From: Geothrix sp. 21YS21S-2
GTDB lineage: Bacteria > Acidobacteriota > Holophagae > Holophagales > Holophagaceae
NCBI RefSeq assembly: GCF_030846775.1
Contig: NZ_CP132910.1
Span: 2,452,001 to 2,516,000, forward strand
Reading direction: 5' to 3'
Length of the DNA stretch: 64,000 nucleotides
Under the pieces are notes generated by a model. That model saw nothing but the letters and a program-made list of their open reading frames with translations, was not told the origin of the DNA and searched no databases. A program made the translations under genes and the position numbers. Shown here piece by piece: positions 41,263 to 53,836 of the stretch (within the stretch, counting starts at the first letter, position 1; each line of letters begins with the position of its first letter).

Positions 41263-42909
41263 ATGCAGCTGACAGGTCTGGAGATCGTGAACTTCCGCGG
41301 CATCGCGCGCCTGCGGCTGGAGGTGGAGCCCGACGCCACGGTGCTCTTCGGGGAGAACGCCTGGGGCAAGACCAGCCTGGTGGAGGCCCTGCAGAGCACG
41401 CTCGGGGAGCGGCCCCTGACGGAGGAGGACTTCCACCGCCTGGCCAACGACCGCACCACCATCGCCAGGCGCATGAGCATCACCCTGACCTTCAGGGGAG
41501 ACCCGCATCCGGAGCTGGAACCGGCCGCATGGCGCGACGGGGCGGGCGCGGCGCGCCTGGTGCTCCAGTGGAGCGGGCGGCGGCTGGACCGGGGGCGGGC
41601 CAAGGTCCGCCGGCTCTTCCTGGATGCCCAGGGCCGGGAGATCCCGCTTCCGGAGGGGGAGGCGGCGCGGCTGGCGGACCGGGTCCGCCGGGACCACCCC
41701 CTTTTCGTCTTCCGGGAGCTGCGCCTGGCGGACGGGATCCTGGCCCCGGCCCTGGCCACCGGCCAGGCCATGCACGAGGATCCCGAAAAGGCCGTGGGGC
41801 GGGTGTTCGAGCGGCTGCTCTCCGTGCCCCATCAGGTGCACCCCAGCGAGTTGGCCCGGGGCCTGGAGGCCCTGAGGCGGGTGGCGGAACACCGTCCGGA
41901 GCTCTTCCAGGGCCTCCAGCCGGCCGGAGAGGCCCCGTTCCGCCGGGCCCTGGACATCGCGGAGGCACCCCTGGGCTTCCAGGGCGGGGACGCCCTGGCG
42001 GACCTGGCCCGGCACGCCGGGGCGGGCATGCGGCAGGTGGTCCTCCTGACCCTGGTGGGGGCCCTGCTCCAGGCGGAGGCCGGGGCCTCCCTGGGCAGGG
42101 GCGCCCGGCCCATCCTGGTGCTGGAGGATCCCGAGACCCACCTGCACCCCATCCAGTTGGCCACCGCCTTGAACGTGGTGTCCCAGCTCCCGGTGCAGAA
42201 GCTGATCACCAGCGCCAGCGGAGCGCTCATGGCCGGCTTCCCCATGCGGGCCCTGCGCCGCCTGGTGCGCCGCAACAACGACACCGCGGTCTTCCCGGAC
42301 CCCGACGGACCCGCCCTGGGCCCCACCGAGATGCGCCGGGTGGCCTTCCATGTGCGCACCCACAATGCCGACAGTCTCTTCGCCCGGGTCTGGCTCCTGG
42401 TGGAGGGGGAGACCGAGGCCTGGCTCCTGCCGGAACTGGCCCGGGTCTGGGGCCTCAACTTCCCGCTGGAGGGGATCCACTGCGTGCCCTTCGCCCAGGC
42501 GGGGCTGGCCCCCCTCCTGGCCTTCGCCGACCGCTTCGGCCTGCCGTGGCACCTCATCGCGGACGGGGACGAGGCCGGCCGCCACTACGTGGCCCGGGCC
42601 CGGAAGCTCCTCAAGGGCCGGCCCGAGGCCCGGTTCATCACCGCCCTGGCGGATCCCGACCTGGAGCACTTCCTCTGGCGCGAAGGCTACGAGGGCGTGT
42701 TCCGGGGCGCCGCGGGCCCGGTGGAGCCGGAGGCCCCGGCCTCGGTGGTGATCCGCCAGGCGCTGCGCGCCTTCTCGAAGCCCGGCATGGCCCTGGAAGT
42801 GGCGGAGGAAGCCGGCAAGCGCGGCCCCTCCGGCATTCCGGCCCCCCTGGCGAAACTCTTCCGCAACCTGCGGGACAGGGCCATGCCCGCCGGGGGCGCG
42901 GCGGGGTGA
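41263..42909 (+). CDS. OLD-family ATPase-TOPRIM nuclease
   Basis: This 548-residue protein combines an SMC/RecF-type ATPase with a TOPRIM nuclease domain, as in overcoming-lysogenisation-defect (OLD) proteins and the YbjD group. Visible motifs: LEIVNFRGIARLRLEVEP at the start, Walker A FGENAWGKTS (residues 29-38), Walker B ILVLEDPETHLHP, and TOPRIM acidic clusters VEGETEAWLLPEL, LIADGDEAGRHY and DPDLEHFLW. OLD nucleases are linked to anti-phage defence in several bacteria; some work alone and others with a UvrD-like helicase (Gabija). No helicase gene is next to it, so it looks like a stand-alone form. The start is ATG 41263, just before the conserved N-terminal strand. Confidence 0.87.
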   Translation: MQLTGLEIVNFRGIARLRLEVEPDATVLFGENAWGKTSLVEALQSTLGERPLTEEDFHRLANDRTTIARRMSITLTFRGDPHPELEPAAWRDGAGAARLVLQWSGRRLDRGRAKVRRLFLDAQGREIPLPEGEAARLADRVRRDHPLFVFRELRLADGILAPALATGQAMHEDPEKAVGRVFERLLSVPHQVHPSELARGLEALRRVAEHRPELFQGLQPAGEAPFRRALDIAEAPLGFQGGDALADLARHAGAGMRQVVLLTLVGALLQAEAGASLGRGARPILVLEDPETHLHPIQLATALNVVSQLPVQKLITSASGALMAGFPMRALRRLVRRNNDTAVFPDPDGPALGPTEMRRVAFHVRTHNADSLFARVWLLVEGETEAWLLPELARVWGLNFPLEGIHCVPFAQAGLAPLLAFADRFGLPWHLIADGDEAGRHYVARARKLLKGRPEARFITALADPDLEHFLWREGYEGVFRGAAGPVEPEAPASVVIRQALRAFSKPGMALEVAEEAGKRGPSGIPAPLAKLFRNLRDRAMPAGGAAG

Positions 42910-43091: not shown

Positions 43092-46000
43092 ATGCCGAAC
43101 GTCAAGCTGATCATCCCCAATCCGCCAGGCACTCCGCTGGCGCATCTCAGGCACCTGGCCGGCACGGCGGTGTCGGACCAGCGCTCCCTTGGGGCGCATT
43201 TCACCCTGGCGGATCTGGGGATTCCACTCGGAGGGCCGGGCGATGCCTGGGACGTGGCGCATGAAGCGGCCCTCCAGATGCAGAGGCGGTTCCTCGAACC
43301 GGACGTGTCCGCGGGGTTTCCGGAACCCTCCGATCCCGCCGGGACCCGTGAGGCGCTGGCCGAGGAGGACGGCAGGGCCCACGATCAGGTGGAGGGCCCG
43401 CTCAAGGGTCCCGGTTTCGGCTGGCACCGGTTGCCGGACTACGCCCAGCTGGAGGCGGCCCGCCTGGACGCCAATGCCGGCCATCCCTCCGAGACCCGCG
43501 TCGCCATCTGCGATGTGGGCTTCGACCTGGAGCACGAGGCCTTCCCCAGGGACCGGGTCCAGTACGCCCGGAACTTCCTGCCCGACGCCGCCCCCGCCAA
43601 TGTCCGGGACCGGGACGTCCACGGGCTCCTGAAGAACCCCGGCCACGGGACGGGGACGATGGGGATCCTGGCCGCGGGGAAGCTCGGGCCGGACATCGTC
43701 TCGGCCGAGCCCGCAGGGCTGGAATTCTTCCTGGGCGCCGCGCCGGATGCCTTCGTGGTTCCGCTGCGCATCGCCACTTCGGTGGTGCTCTTCAGCGTCT
43801 CCAGCTTCGTGGAGGCGATGGAGTACCTGCTGGATCTCGACGCGCGGGGGATCCACACCGATGTCGTCTCCATGAGCATGGGGGGCGTAGGCAGCGCGGC
43901 CTGGGCCGACGTGGTGAACCGCGCCTACGCCCGGGGGATCCTCGTCGTCACGGCGGCGGGCAACAACGTCCCCCTGGGCCTCGGCCTTCACAGCCCCACG
44001 AGCACGGTGTTTCCCGCGCGGTTCAACCGGGTGGTCTCCGCCACCGGCGTCACGGCCGGGTTCGCCCCCTACGCCACCATCACCGATCTGAAGATGCGCG
44101 GGAACTACGGTCCGCCCAGCAAGATGCGCACGGCCATCGCGGCCTACACGCCGAATTCCCCCTGGGCCTTCTACCGGAACGACCGCAGGATCGATCTGGA
44201 CGGGCAGGGCACCTCCTCCGCGACGCCCCAGGTGGCGGGGGCCGCGGCGCTGTACCTCCGCAAGCACAAGGGGGCCATGGCCGGCTGGGAGCCCTGGCAG
44301 GTGGCCGAGGCCACGCGCCGGGCGCTCTTCCGGAGCGCGCGCCGCACCCATCCCGTGACCGGGGCGCCCCTGCTGGATTGCGATACGTACTTCGGCGCCG
44401 GCCTCCTCGCGGCCCTGGACGCGCTGCAGTGCGCTCCCGAGCAGCCCGGGGCCCCCGAACCCGAGGATTCCGTCTTCCTGCCCGCCCTGGACGTCCTCTT
44501 CGGGAACGCAGGGCAGCCGCTGGCGGGCTGGGAGGGCGAGGACGCGTTCCGGAAGATGCTCTGGCTGGAGACGGTCCAGCTGATCCACCGGGATCCCCAG
44601 GTCGAAGCCGCCGTGGCCGACCCCGACAGCGGTTCCATGAGCGGGGAGGAGCAGGCGAACCTCCGGAAGGCGATCCTCGACAGTCCGGAGGCCTCGGCCA
44701 CCCTGAAGCGGTTCATCGACGCCGGCTACCGGTCCCCCCTGCGCACCCTCCCGCGCAGGCCCATCGACCCGCCTCCCCCGGTCCGGGAGGAGGATCCGCC
44801 GCCCCCCCAGGCCAGGCGGCTCCAGGCCTACGCCTTCGACCCGAGCCTTTCCGGGAGGTTCGAGAGCTTCGGCTTCAACAAGGTCTCCCTCGACGTTCCC
44901 TGGGAGAAGCTGGACCCGGGCCCCTGCGGGGAGTACCTCGCCGTCATCGACCACGACCCCGCCACGGGCTGCTTCTACCCGCCGGTGAACCTGGACCACC
45001 CGCATCTGCTCGCCTCCGAGGGCCTTCCGCAGTCTCCCGGCAATCCCCAGTTCCACCAGCAGATGGTCTACGCGGTGGCCATGCGCACCATCCGGAATTT
45101 CGAGATGGCCCTGGGGCGCCGCGTCCAGTGGTCTCCCCGGATGCGGCCGGGAAGCCCCGACGACAGCGCCTTCGTCCAGCGCCTCCATGTGCATCCCCAC
45201 GCGCTGCGGGAGCAGAACGCCTACTACCATCCCGGCAAGAAGGCCCTGCTCTTCGGCTACTTCCCGGCCGAACCCGCGGATCCCCAGGAGCTCTACACGG
45301 GCGGCATAACCTTTTCGTGCCTGTCCCAGGACATCATCGCCCACGAAACCACCCACGCCATCCTCGACGGCATCTACCGCCGGTTCAACAACCCTACCAA
45401 CCCGGACCAGCTGGCCTTCCACGAGGGCTTCGCCGACCTGGTCGCGCTGCTCCAGCACTTCACCATCGCGAGCGTGGTCGAGTCGCAGGTCCGCAGGGTC
45501 CGCGGCGATCTGAAGGTGGGCAACGCGCTGATGGAGATGGCCCGGGAGTTCGGGGAGGCGACCGGGATGCACGGCGCCCTCCGCACCGCCATCGGCGGCG
45601 GCGCCGATCCGGCCACGGGAAGGCCGGACTACCTCGCCCTCGGCAATACGACGGAGATCCACGACCGGGGCGCGATCCTCGTGGCGGCCGTGTTTGACGC
45701 CTTCCTGAAGATCTACGACGCCAAGACCGCCGACCTCCGCCGCATCGCCACGGGCGGGACCGGCCTCCTGCCCGGCGGCGAGATATCGGCGGATCTCGTG
45801 AGGCGCTTCGCTGGGGAGGCCACGGCCCTCGCCTCCCAGTTCCTGCAGATGTGCATCCGCGCCCTGGACTACTGCCCCCCGGTCGACCTCACGTTCGCCG
45901 ACTACCTCCGGGCCCTGATCACCGCGGACCACGACCTGCTGCCTTCGGATCCCTGGGGCTACCGGATCGCCATCGCCGAAAGCTTCCGCCAGCGGGCCAT

Positions 46001-46646
46001 CTTCCCGGCCAACGTGATCACCTTCGGCGAGGAGACCCTCCTCTGGCACCGCCCGAAGGGGAACTGCGTCAGCCGGATGTTCCAGTCGGCGGGGCAGCAG
46101 CTGGAACTTCTCGCCACCCACCTCCTCCACCTGGATCCGGGGCCCGCCCAGGAGGGCGTTCCCCGCCCCGGGGCCCGGCGGCGGATGTTCAAGCTCGCCC
46201 GCGGCGCCCGGGCGACCCTCCACAACCGGATGCGGGACCATATCCTGGCGCTTCCGGCCGCGGAGCGGGAGGAGATCTCCCGCGAGCTCGGCCTCGACCT
46301 GGGCGGCGAGGCTCCGGTTTTCGAGGTGCACACCGCCACCATCGCCGAACGGCAGGGGCCGGACGGTCGCATGCTCCGGCAGTTCGTCCTGACCTTCCTG
46401 CAGGGGAGGACGTCCGTCGAGGACGGGGTCGAGATCGAGCTCTGGAGCGGCGCGACCGTGCTCCTGGACCGCCACGACCGCTCCGTGCGCTACATCATCA
46501 CCAAGAGCGCCCACAGCCCGGAGCGCGCAGCCCGGAACCGGGCCTTCGCCCTCGCGGAAGCCGCCCGGAACAACCCCTACTTCGCCACCTCGGCCGATCA
46601 GCGCTTCGCCCTGATCCACGCCGCGGGGAGGATCCGCCATGACTGA
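43092..46646 (+). CDS. Cytoplasmic double protease: subtilisin (S8) plus HExxH metallopeptidase domain
   Basis: This 1184-residue protein lacks a signal peptide. Its first half is a subtilase with a full triad: Asp141 (VAICDVGFDLEHEAF), His185 (NPGHGTGTMGILAAG) and Ser375 (GQGTSSATPQVAGAAALYL). A proline-rich linker near 555-575 (PIDPPPPVREEDPPPP) leads to a second catalytic-looking domain with zinc motif IIAHETTHAILDG (His751, Glu752, His755) and HEGFADLVALLQH, where Glu778 may be the third ligand. The last 200 residues resemble nothing I know. GGGAGG lies 10 bases before ATG 43092. It overlaps the MBL gene by 8 bases, so the products probably act together. Two protease types in one cytoplasmic chain is unusual; a defence or self-processing role is inference. 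Confidence 0.85.
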   Translation: MPNVKLIIPNPPGTPLAHLRHLAGTAVSDQRSLGAHFTLADLGIPLGGPGDAWDVAHEAALQMQRRFLEPDVSAGFPEPSDPAGTREALAEEDGRAHDQVEGPLKGPGFGWHRLPDYAQLEAARLDANAGHPSETRVAICDVGFDLEHEAFPRDRVQYARNFLPDAAPANVRDRDVHGLLKNPGHGTGTMGILAAGKLGPDIVSAEPAGLEFFLGAAPDAFVVPLRIATSVVLFSVSSFVEAMEYLLDLDARGIHTDVVSMSMGGVGSAAWADVVNRAYARGILVVTAAGNNVPLGLGLHSPTSTVFPARFNRVVSATGVTAGFAPYATITDLKMRGNYGPPSKMRTAIAAYTPNSPWAFYRNDRRIDLDGQGTSSATPQVAGAAALYLRKHKGAMAGWEPWQVAEATRRALFRSARRTHPVTGAPLLDCDTYFGAGLLAALDALQCAPEQPGAPEPEDSVFLPALDVLFGNAGQPLAGWEGEDAFRKMLWLETVQLIHRDPQVEAAVADPDSGSMSGEEQANLRKAILDSPEASATLKRFIDAGYRSPLRTLPRRPIDPPPPVREEDPPPPQARRLQAYAFDPSLSGRFESFGFNKVSLDVPWEKLDPGPCGEYLAVIDHDPATGCFYPPVNLDHPHLLASEGLPQSPGNPQFHQQMVYAVAMRTIRNFEMALGRRVQWSPRMRPGSPDDSAFVQRLHVHPHALREQNAYYHPGKKALLFGYFPAEPADPQELYTGGITFSCLSQDIIAHETTHAILDGIYRRFNNPTNPDQLAFHEGFADLVALLQHFTIASVVESQVRRVRGDLKVGNALMEMAREFGEATGMHGALRTAIGGGADPATGRPDYLALGNTTEIHDRGAILVAAVFDAFLKIYDAKTADLRRIATGGTGLLPGGEISADLVRRFAGEATALASQFLQMCIRALDYCPPVDLTFADYLRALITADHDLLPSDPWGYRIAIAESFRQRAIFPANVITFGEETLLWHRPKGNCVSRMFQSAGQQLELLATHLLHLDPGPAQEGVPRPGARRRMFKLARGARATLHNRMRDHILALPAAEREEISRELGLDLGGEAPVFEVHTATIAERQGPDGRMLRQFVLTFLQGRTSVEDGVEIELWSGATVLLDRHDRSVRYIITKSAHSPERAARNRAFALAEAARNNPYFATSADQRFALIHAAGRIRHD

Positions 46647-47883
46647 CCCCGAAGTCACCGTCCGCATGTACTGCACGGGCCTGGGCGACTGCCACCTCCT
46701 GACGTTCAGGACGGCCCGCCGGACCAGCCATGTCCTCATCGACTGCGGCTACTTCCCCGGTTCGCCCTTCCCCGGCGTCGGGATCGACGAGATCGTCCAG
46801 GATATCGCAGCCGTCACGGAGAACCGCCTGGACGCCATCGTGGTCACCCACGAGCACCAGGACCACCTGCAGGGCTTCGCCGACGAGGCCGGCCGGTTCG
46901 AGGCCATGGAGAAGTCCGAGCTGTGGATGGCCTGGACCGAGAAGCCGGGCCAGAAGATCGTGCCCTCCTCCCGTACCCTGGCGGCCCTGGAGGCCGCGGC
47001 CCGGGGCCTGGCCGCCAGCGCCGACCCCGAGGCGAGCCGCACCGGGGGGGCCGTCCAGGAGATGCTCGGTTTCTCCCAGGGGACTGCGAGGACCTTCGAC
47101 ACGGTTAAGGGCTGGTTCCCCGCGGCCTCGAGGAAGTACTGGAAACCGGGTGATGTCCTCGAACCCGACTGGCTTCCGGGGGTCCGGGTCCACGTCCTCG
47201 GCCCCCCCGCCGACCTGGCGATGCTGCACAAGAAGACCGGTACGAAGGGCACCCAGATGTATGAGCTGGCGGCCGATCCCTTCGGCTTCGCGGCGGCGGC
47301 GCTCGACGTATCCGAGCCGGGCACGCTGTCGCCCTTCGATGCCAAGTATGCCCGTGCGAAGCTGCCGGATCCCGTCGCCGGCCTCTACGAGGAGGCCTGG
47401 CGCCGCATCGACTCGGACTGGCTCCTGAGCGCCTCGCGTCTGGCGCTCCAGTTGGACACCTACACCAACAACACGAGCCTGGTACTGGCCTTCGAGCTGA
47501 AGGCCTCCGGCCGGGTGCTGCTCTTCGTGGGGGACGCCCAGATCGGCAACTGGCTGTCCTGGCCGTCGGTGAGGTTCACGGATCCCAAGGGCCGCGAGCT
47601 GGACGTCACCTCCGCGGACCTGCTCTCCCGCACCGTCTTCTACAAGGTGGGCCACCACGGGAGCCACAACGCGACCCTGGTCGAAGGCGGCCTCTCCGGG
47701 ATGACCAGCGGGGACCTCCACGCCGCGATCCCCACGAACGCGGCCTGGGCCCAGAGCGCCAAGAACTGGGTGATGCCCAACGCGAACCTGCTCAAGGCCC
47801 TGAACCGCAAATGCGCCAAACCCGTGATGCGAGCCGACAAGCCGGTCAATAAACAGGATCCCTGCATCCAGTTCACGCTCTAG
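46639..47883 (+). CDS. ComEC-type metallo-beta-lactamase-fold protein, partner of the double protease
   Basis: The 414-residue MBL-fold hydrolase has the metal motif IVVTHEHQDHLQGF (His71, His73, Asp75, His76), a later ligand region in RVLLFVGDAQIGNW and YKVGHHGSHNATL (His339). These forms resemble the C-terminal MBL domain of ComEC and related phosphodiesterases or nucleases rather than true beta-lactamases. No signal or membrane segment is seen, so the protein should be cytoplasmic. Its ATG lies inside the end of the protease gene, with GGAGG about 8 bases upstream, so translation is coupled. The substrate could be a nucleic acid or nucleotide; that is inference. Confidence 0.85.
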   Translation: MTDPEVTVRMYCTGLGDCHLLTFRTARRTSHVLIDCGYFPGSPFPGVGIDEIVQDIAAVTENRLDAIVVTHEHQDHLQGFADEAGRFEAMEKSELWMAWTEKPGQKIVPSSRTLAALEAAARGLAASADPEASRTGGAVQEMLGFSQGTARTFDTVKGWFPAASRKYWKPGDVLEPDWLPGVRVHVLGPPADLAMLHKKTGTKGTQMYELAADPFGFAAAALDVSEPGTLSPFDAKYARAKLPDPVAGLYEEAWRRIDSDWLLSASRLALQLDTYTNNTSLVLAFELKASGRVLLFVGDAQIGNWLSWPSVRFTDPKGRELDVTSADLLSRTVFYKVGHHGSHNATLVEGGLSGMTSGDLHAAIPTNAAWAQSAKNWVMPNANLLKALNRKCAKPVMRADKPVNKQDPCIQFTL

Positions 47884-51936: not shown

Positions 51937-52980
51937 GTGATCGAACTGGCTGAGGCGGAAAACCTGATCCGGGTAGCCCTCCGAAACTTCGAGGAGCAAA
52001 CCGGTTTCGCTGGCAATCTCATTGCTCCCGGAGACGCACGGCGTGACGAGCAGAAACCCGATCGTCACGATGCCTGGGTCGAAATCATAGGCGGGGACAC
52101 ACGGAATGCCTTCGTTGTCGAGGTGAAGAAGACCATCGGCCGGGTCTGGGCCCTGGAGGATGTGCAGCGCCGATTGAAGGCCTACCCGGCTCCCGGCCTG
52201 TTGTTCACCCGGTATGTCTCCCCGGCACTCGCAAGGCAATGCAAGGACCTGGGCCTGCAATTCATGGACACAGCCGGGAATGCCTATATCAATGAGCCCG
52301 GCATGTTCATCCAGATCACGGGCCAACGCCCCGCGGTCGACCCTTGGGAGGAGACCGCGACTTTCAAGGGCTTCACCCCCGCAGGATTGAAGATCCTCTA
52401 CGCCTTCATCTGCGATGAAGCCCTGCTCAATGCGCCTTTCCGGGAAATCGCCAAGGCCGCCAAGGTCGGGCTGGGCACCGTGGCTGAAACCATCAGGGAT
52501 CTCAGGAGGCAAGGCTTCGCGGTGGTGGACGAGCAACTCAAAAGTCGCCTTTTCAACACCAGGCGACTGCGGGAGACCTGGATTGAAAGCTATCCCATAA
52601 GGCTCCGGAGAAAACTTCAGGGAAGACGGTTCACAGCCCCCGACCCAGAGTGGTGGAAAGAGGCTCGGCCGAGAGACCAGGGTGCCTACTGGGGAAGCGA
52701 AGTTGCCGCGGCCAAACTCACCGGGTACCTTCTTCCCCAAACCTGCACCCTCTATACCCACGGGGATCCCAAGGCCCTCATCCTCCGCTACCGCCTGCGC
52801 CCTGATCCCATGGGGACCATCGAGGTTCTCCAGGCCTTCTGGGATCCCGCCCTGCCGCAGGGACCCGCTCCCAACGAGGATGTGGTGCATCCTCTCCTTG
52901 TCGAAGCTGACCTGAAGGCCATCGATGATCCCCGTACCAACGAAACGGCAAGAATGATCCATGAAAAATTTATTCAATAG
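51937..52980 (+). CDS. Type IV toxin-antitoxin AbiEi-like antitoxin with nuclease-like N-terminus
   Basis: This 347-residue protein precedes and overlaps an AbiEii-type toxin gene by 20 bases, the standard antitoxin-toxin order. The middle (about 145-200) is a winged helix (FREIAKAAKVGLGTVAETIR), suited to DNA binding and autoregulation. The N-terminal 120 residues look like a PD-(D/E)xK nuclease core: Asp45, then VVEVKK with Glu62 and Lys64, then GLLFTRYVSPALARQCKDLG. Whether this part is active is unknown. The start is GTG 51937, directly behind operator 2. AbiEi proteins of other bacteria bind inverted repeats in their own promoter; the repeats here fit that. Confidence 0.78.
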   Translation: MIELAEAENLIRVALRNFEEQTGFAGNLIAPGDARRDEQKPDRHDAWVEIIGGDTRNAFVVEVKKTIGRVWALEDVQRRLKAYPAPGLLFTRYVSPALARQCKDLGLQFMDTAGNAYINEPGMFIQITGQRPAVDPWEETATFKGFTPAGLKILYAFICDEALLNAPFREIAKAAKVGLGTVAETIRDLRRQGFAVVDEQLKSRLFNTRRLRETWIESYPIRLRRKLQGRRFTAPDPEWWKEARPRDQGAYWGSEVAAAKLTGYLLPQTCTLYTHGDPKALILRYRLRPDPMGTIEVLQAFWDPALPQGPAPNEDVVHPLLVEADLKAIDDPRTNETARMIHEKFIQ

Positions 52981-53836
52981 CCTCTTGCGCCCCCTGGACA
53001 CTGCCCTGGTCGTCCTGCTTACGGATGTGGACCAGATCTGCAAGTCCGTCCAGGTGGATTTCTTGCTCACCGGCTCGATGCCCCGGGAAATCGCTCTGTA
53101 CCATGTCTTCGGCCTGGACAAAGGACGAGGAACCGCCGATGTGGACTTTGGCATTTCGGTCCAGTCGTGGGAGCATTTCGAACAGCTCCGAAGCGCCTTC
53201 TTGGACTCGGGCCTGTTCGAAAGGGACCCCAATCCCAGTGTATTTTGGAGCAGGCGCCCTGGCCGCCTTCAAGTCGACCTGGTACCGTTCGGGGCGATCG
53301 AGAAAGACGACGGAACCATTGCTTGGCCGCCCGAGGAACGCCAACGAATGAACGTTCTCGGCTACGAGGCTGCCCTGCGACATGCGTGGAGCTTTCCCCT
53401 TTCAGACAACATCGAGATCCCCATGGCCTCCTTGCCGGGAACTGTCCTGCTAAAGCTGATGGCTTGGCGCGATCGAGGCGAAGCCAGGGGCGGCAAGGAT
53501 GCCCTTGACCTGATGACCATCCTGGAGAGCTACGACCGGGTGTTGGGCCAGGACGCCTTGTTCGGCCCATTCCAGGATCTGCTCGTGGCTTATCAGTTCG
53601 ACCAAGAGGTGGCGGCCGCCCATATCCTGGGCGCCGAAGTCCGGGATATGACTGAGGTCAGGACCCTTGAGGTGATGCTGGAACCTTTCACGGAAAAAGG
53701 ACGAGAATCTTTGAAATCGCACATGATCCGGAAATACCAGGCTGTGGATCGAAGCCGCCCCCTTGCCCGTGCCGGCGGCTTCCTGAATGCCTTGGAGAAC
53801 GGCCTCCGGACTGGACTGGTGGTGCCTGAAGGTTGA
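52961..53836 (+). CDS. Nucleotidyltransferase AbiEii/AbiGii-family toxin
   Basis: The 291-residue product is a nucleotidyltransferase-fold toxin. The key motif is FLLTGSMPREIAL (Gly38, Ser39) with Asp60 and Asp62 in RGTADVDFGI as probable metal ligands, followed by LLKLMAWRDRGEARGGKDAL and DLMTILESYD, which match the downstream lysine and KDxxDL-like elements. AbiEii toxins are thought to use NTPs to modify a cellular target and stop growth, giving abortive infection on phage attack. It overlaps the antitoxin gene by 20 bases, so translation is coupled. Confidence 0.85.
   Translation: MKNLFNSLLRPLDTALVVLLTDVDQICKSVQVDFLLTGSMPREIALYHVFGLDKGRGTADVDFGISVQSWEHFEQLRSAFLDSGLFERDPNPSVFWSRRPGRLQVDLVPFGAIEKDDGTIAWPPEERQRMNVLGYEAALRHAWSFPLSDNIEIPMASLPGTVLLKLMAWRDRGEARGGKDALDLMTILESYDRVLGQDALFGPFQDLLVAYQFDQEVAAAHILGAEVRDMTEVRTLEVMLEPFTEKGRESLKSHMIRKYQAVDRSRPLARAGGFLNALENGLRTGLVVPEG

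Follow-up and report, generated by a model that had tools for sequence, protein, structure and literature searches.

The gene pair described here lies in a 64,000-nucleotide stretch of the genome of Geothrix sp. 21YS21S-2 (the window) and consists of two intact open reading frames, which overlap by exactly 8 bp, stop codon included. The features are listed below with their positions in the window.

43092-46646, plus strand: gene 1, intact open reading frame, fusion of subtilase, linker and predicted gluzincin metalloprotease, 1184 amino acids
43494-44339, plus strand: subtilase (S8) catalytic domain, residues 135-416 (Pfam PF00082, 1.2e-20)
44775-46646, plus strand: core unit, predicted HExxH gluzincin with C-terminal extension, residues ~562-1184 (from homologues and AF2 model)
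45342-45437, plus strand: motifs HETTH (751-755) and HEGFAD (777-782) (from sequence and gluzincin fold)
46639-47883, plus strand: gene 2, intact open reading frame, ComEC-type MBL-fold protein, 414 amino acids
46942-47124, plus strand: MBL insert 1, residues ~102-162, variable in length and modelled as helical
47227-47424, plus strand: MBL insert 2, residues ~197-262, length-variable

The subtilase domain of gene 1 contains the catalytic triad of S8 peptidases, D141, H185 (in GHGT) and S375 (in GTSSATP), which is kept in 53/54, 53/53 and 53/55 homologues, respectively. A proline-rich linker joins this domain to a C-terminal part of about 620 residues, in which H751, H755 and E778 are the predicted zinc ligands and E752 the predicted catalytic residue. 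The His/Glu/His of the HExxH motif, E778 and H857 are invariant in 81 of 81 homologues. In the MBL protein the same holds for H71, H73, D75, H76, D299, H339 and H340 (63/63). Because the active-site residues of the HExxH, subtilase and MBL domains are invariant or nearly so across homologues, their conservation, judged from the alignments, is far beyond chance. The C-terminal part of gene 1 reaches the curated cut-off of no Pfam, NCBIfam or PADLOC model. The M4/M36 Pfam families gave no match at gathering level (best PF01447 with 0.052, in 2 of 17 HExxH homologues), and the HExxH profile, searched against PDB sequences, hit 1npc alone (E=0.69). Both proteins lack a hydrophobic N-terminus: within the first 60 residues, the Kyte-Doolittle mean of 15-residue stretches peaks at 1.06 for gene 1 and at 0.89 for the MBL protein. 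This is in line with a cytoplasmic location of both.

The AF2 model of a stand-alone homologue of the HExxH protein (L087, mean pLDDT 73) matches fungalysin (M36) with a Z of 16.5 over 317 aligned residues at 4.0 A (VIA-align) and thermolysin-like M4 enzymes with Z 14-15.4, the alignments spanning residues ~20-434. Foldseek alone found no significant match for this model; VIA-align, run on Foldseek's list, gave significant ones. The domain models as a gluzincin (MA clan) of the M4/M36-like type, with the HExxH motif, the downstream Glu ligand and a thermolysin-type fold, and in our own reading H857 is placed like the catalytic His of thermolysin. It differs from the M36/M4 peptidases by a sequence identity of 11-17%, by an extra C-terminal part and by the lack of a hydrophobic leader and of a Pfam family match. 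The L087 model also shows weak cystatin/NTF2-like Foldseek matches (E 1-4), which probably stem from its C-terminal strand-and-helix part (residues ~500-600); this part may be a separate regulatory domain.

The MBL protein carries the motifs HEHQDH at residues 71-76 and GHHGSHN at 338-344. Its sequence matches to the LmuA, Avs1a and 6A-MBL models are weak and N-terminal only; NF041809 (Avs1a) is matched with 4.2e-7 over residues 10-80 alone (29 bits versus a cutoff of 420). The structure model (pLDDT 86), based on an alignment from which nine plasmid-record rows were left out and the remaining loci used, superimposes on the nuclease domain of ComEC with Z 23.2 and 255 of 266 residues aligned, with the same kind of metal motifs. 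As nearly the whole ComEC domain is aligned, about 160 residues of the window protein are additional, and these lie largely in the two inserts; unlike ComEC, the protein is free-standing and has no membrane domains. Insert 1 contains F145, conserved in 54 of 63 sequences. Insert 2 contains the single stretch of the model with a pLDDT below 50 (213-232), right at the end of which stand P232 (61/63) and F233 (62/63). Near-invariant residues in a loop that varies in length and appears disordered would fit a protease site and an active-site plug alike, and we infer that this Pro-Phe motif is a candidate site of cleavage or gating. Enzymes of the thermolysin type generally cleave in front of large hydrophobic residues, which makes the Phe a plausible cut site.

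The first-pass annotation of this DNA had described a 1184-residue subtilase with a complete triad, a second domain with HETTH and HEGFAD, the absence of a signal peptide, the overlap of 8 bases and the MBL-fold motifs, and all of these observations were borne out. It had also treated the two genes as partners and the HETTH domain as a zinc protease; adjacency among the homologues, given below, and the gluzincin model agree with this.

Among genome contigs, a scan yielded 272 relatives, 80 of which were kept. About 53 are full-length homologues with the same subtilase fusion, and about 28 match the C-terminal part only, as a stand-alone protein of ~640 amino acids. When added genomes and plasmids are counted together with the scan loci, an MBL gene adjoins the HExxH gene in 91 of 114 loci (50/56 stand-alone, 41/58 fused), and the pairing recurs across many bacterial phyla. 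The conserved unit is the C-terminal HExxH protein of ~620 amino acids together with the MBL gene, and the subtilase is a fusion present in some clades. The original description as a subtilisin/HExxH protease paired with an MBL protein therefore stands for the HExxH-MBL core but not for the subtilase, and the proposed activation of one protease by the other fails as a general mechanism, since the subtilase is a clade-specific fusion. On the tree, the fused or stand-alone state requires two changes and the presence or absence of the MBL gene one. The window protein groups with the betaproteobacterial fusion L022 (gene row: patatin, fusion, MBL), beside a clade of fusions lacking the MBL gene (support 85). 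All 17 fused loci without an MBL gene nearby, three of which are truncated at a contig end, belong to this clade; they include L025, L026, L028, L031, L032, L035, L044, L047, L050, L052, L064, L065, L068, L127 and L128. In six sampled genomes of the clade, the MBL gene was found nowhere. These fusions have lost the MBL gene or never had it, so the pairing is not absolute; the protease has one or more roles that do not depend on the MBL protein, and it can have a target other than this partner. One Mesorhizobium genome (G290; C110, C443) has a fused as well as a stand-alone copy, and MBL and patatin genes accompany the stand-alone one (L160).

Family distances of HExxH and MBL proteins correlate with r=0.79 over 78 loci, a value reached in 0 of 2000 permutations; in the same plain Mantel comparison, which ignores species history, the fused subtilase gave 0.86 against HExxH and patatin 0.45. 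The distribution is patchy (within the phylum, 16 of 247 genomes have a relative), and many stand-alone pairs are located on plasmids (76 plasmid records with a match, 29 with a match over most of the query). No relative was detected in the viral contigs scanned. Two phage records gave a match; one is a 9.5-kb contig labelled 'bacteriophage', without annotation, that has HExxH and MBL genes.

A lipase gene lies within 3 kb of 22 of 50 stand-alone pairs as opposed to 4 of 41 fusions and none of 20 control regions; a recognised lipase is absent at about half of the stand-alone pairs. A patatin-like phospholipase is encoded directly upstream at L071, L077, L087, L095-L099, L104, L105, L126 and L169 and downstream of the pair at L131, L160 and L172, a Tle1-like (DUF2235) lipase downstream at L070, L078, L082, L108 and L177, and a phospholipase-D-like protein 35 bp upstream of the pair on plasmid L176. 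Plasmid pRle248a of R. leguminosarum is one carrier of a patatin-HExxH-MBL locus. Since three unrelated lipase families occupy the same place, they look like interchangeable effectors. The rarity of lipases beside fusions (Fisher p=4e-4, loci counted irrespective of phylogeny) hints that the subtilase takes the place of the lipase; L022 and L034 possess both.

These lipases and the MBL-less fusions bear on an alternative that we consider rather unlikely, namely an anti-phage module in which the MBL protein is not activated by proteolysis. The metalloprotease, with the subtilase where present, would then kill by cutting host proteins or by activating the lipase, and the MBL protein would independently hydrolyse some other substrate, such as a nucleotide signal. 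In favor of this alternative are the fusions that lack the MBL gene yet keep their protease residues intact, and the many loci at which a lipase gene directly abuts the protease gene; the co-variation of the HExxH and MBL families, the ComEC nuclease fold and the inserts with their conserved motif speak against it.

Some plasmid loci adjoin CBASS, Hachiman, SIR2 and ubiquitin-like/ThiF genes. At a threshold of 1e-20, the six genes closest to the pair matched 65 PADLOC models over 20 loci; an equal number of genes from control regions in these genomes, mostly on the contigs that hold the loci, matched 3. As many PADLOC models are redundant, the distinct defence genes are far fewer than 65; by our own estimate, there are roughly ten distinct defence proteins near the pair and four or five in the controls. 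Hymenobacter plasmids L103 and L168, each with a stand-alone HExxH-MBL pair, encode directly upstream an AAA family ATPase annotated as double-strand-break-repair type (L103:5571-7961, L168:6604-8970), a possible sensor. On a further Hymenobacter plasmid (L171:1-7023) genes for an ATP-binding protein, an S8 peptidase of another kind, a further MBL-family protein and ThiF stand in a row beside an HExxH-MBL pair, which makes a second protease-MBL arrangement. A gene annotated as peptidoglycan-binding is located directly upstream at L172:8234-8929, with a relative at L109:2963-3511.

Patatin, Tle1-like and phospholipase D lipases are known exported effectors, and around some plasmid loci the neighbors encode enzymes of lytic type instead of defence proteins. 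An arsenal of antibacterial or exported toxins, of the T6SS or contractile-injection type, would account for the Tle1-like and phospholipase D families at the loci, for the PF01471 peptidoglycan-binding domain on one of 17 HExxH homologues (alignment A1) and for the cell-wall hydrolase, amidase or nuclease neighbors on a few Rhizobium plasmids. We judge it improbable, as both window proteins lack a hydrophobic leader, no secretion-system effector cluster is annotated among the plasmid loci examined, no single trafficking domain is common to the family, and CBASS and Hachiman are among the neighbors. A role in general cytoplasmic proteolysis or in lipid or peptide metabolism, outside any conflict, is very unlikely: metabolic genes do surround some loci, but the patchy distribution, the carriage on plasmids, the excess of PADLOC families over the controls and the interchangeable lipases speak against it. 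Pairing across phyla beside lipases and known anti-phage genes indicates that the HExxH-MBL pair is probably a bacterial immune module. The first-pass suggestion of an immune or cell-death module thus finds backing in the context (plasmids, defence islands, lipase genes), though not in the form of an absolute pairing with the MBL gene.

In the window, an OLD-like DUF2813 ATPase with TOPRIM is encoded just upstream (41263-42906, plus strand; PF11398 5e-60, PADLOC GajA-type 4.6e-80), with close DNA matches in two congeners. This gene is unlikely to form an operon with the pair, since 182 bp with a possible hairpin separate it from gene 1. As the gene downstream of the pair (AraC) is on the opposite strand, the pair probably stands alone as a unit. 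A few kb downstream (51937-53836, plus strand) an AbiEi-like antitoxin and an AbiEii-like nucleotidyltransferase (PF09952 1.2e-30, PF08843 8e-6) likely form a type IV toxin-antitoxin system. Synteny comparison revealed no clean empty site in the congeners, because the flanking blocks match them at unrelated places.

MBL proteins paired with trypsin-like proteases (Hachiman, AVAST) or with a caspase (canu) are pro-nucleases with an active site gated by two inserts, which the partner protease targets (Tuck et al., Science 2025, PMC12799240). In HamM, the best-studied of them, the cuts occur at I118 and I218, on the two inserts (PMC12799240); the inserts of the window protein lie at ~102-162 and ~197-262. 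The pair shares with the trypsin-MBL pairs (HamMAB/Hachiman, Avs1, Lamassu, DRT) a protease that adjoins and co-evolves with a ComEC-like MBL protein with two inserts, a protease often fused to something else, and occurrence in unrelated defence contexts. It differs in that the protease is a predicted gluzincin, with or without a subtilase, instead of a trypsin, in that the MBL gene is downstream, and in that the partners are lipases and not HamA, Avs or LmuA. No STAND NTPase, LmuB/C or RT, the partners of AVAST type 1, Lamassu and DRT systems, is found beside the window pair, and a search of the phylum with the Avs1a model gave one weak genome. With the Canu caspase-nuclease systems the pair has in common the gene order, the MBL nuclease following the protease, as well as accessory genes that vary and a location in defence islands, whereas a thermolysin/fungalysin-type metalloprotease replaces the caspase and lipases recur as neighbors.

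From this comparison, the pair probably works like the gated pro-nuclease/protease pairs and would represent a gluzincin-based variant of that arrangement; its MBL protein may belong to the same nuclease clade. The study also mentions nucleases whose partner proteases come from 'other diverse families', left unnamed in its main text (PMC12799240). The composition of the pair was not found in the Aravind-group conflict-system papers that were searched. The earlier statement that no described system has this composition is hence qualified by the protease-activated pro-nucleases as a precedent, but the gluzincin sets the pair apart from their trypsin-like and caspase partners.

Our favored reading, held with reasonable but far from full confidence, is a cytoplasmic immune module of the abortive-infection type. 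The thermolysin/fungalysin-type metalloprotease, here fused to a subtilase, would be idle until infection is sensed and would then cut the two inserts of the ComEC-type MBL protein, which would cover its active site, unleashing a DNase that would destroy phage and host DNA. Infection could be sensed by the lipase, by the HExxH protein through its C-terminal part or by the subtilase together with its N-terminal region. The phospholipase next to stand-alone relatives (patatin, Tle1-like, once phospholipase D) would act as second effector; in fused versions the subtilase, in the place of the lipase, may be an activator coupled to a sensor, or else one more effector. A two-step cascade is a tentative extension that we hold with low confidence; the subtilase would be the upstream initiator and the metalloprotease the hub that releases both the DNase and phospholipase zymogens, so that two unrelated kinds of killer would be set free at once, the phospholipase coming from several unrelated families. 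If the favored reading is right, proteolytic activation of MBL nucleases would extend beyond trypsin and caspase to a third, mechanistically unrelated class of protease, carried by a mobile core pair across many phyla and often beside interchangeable phospholipases.
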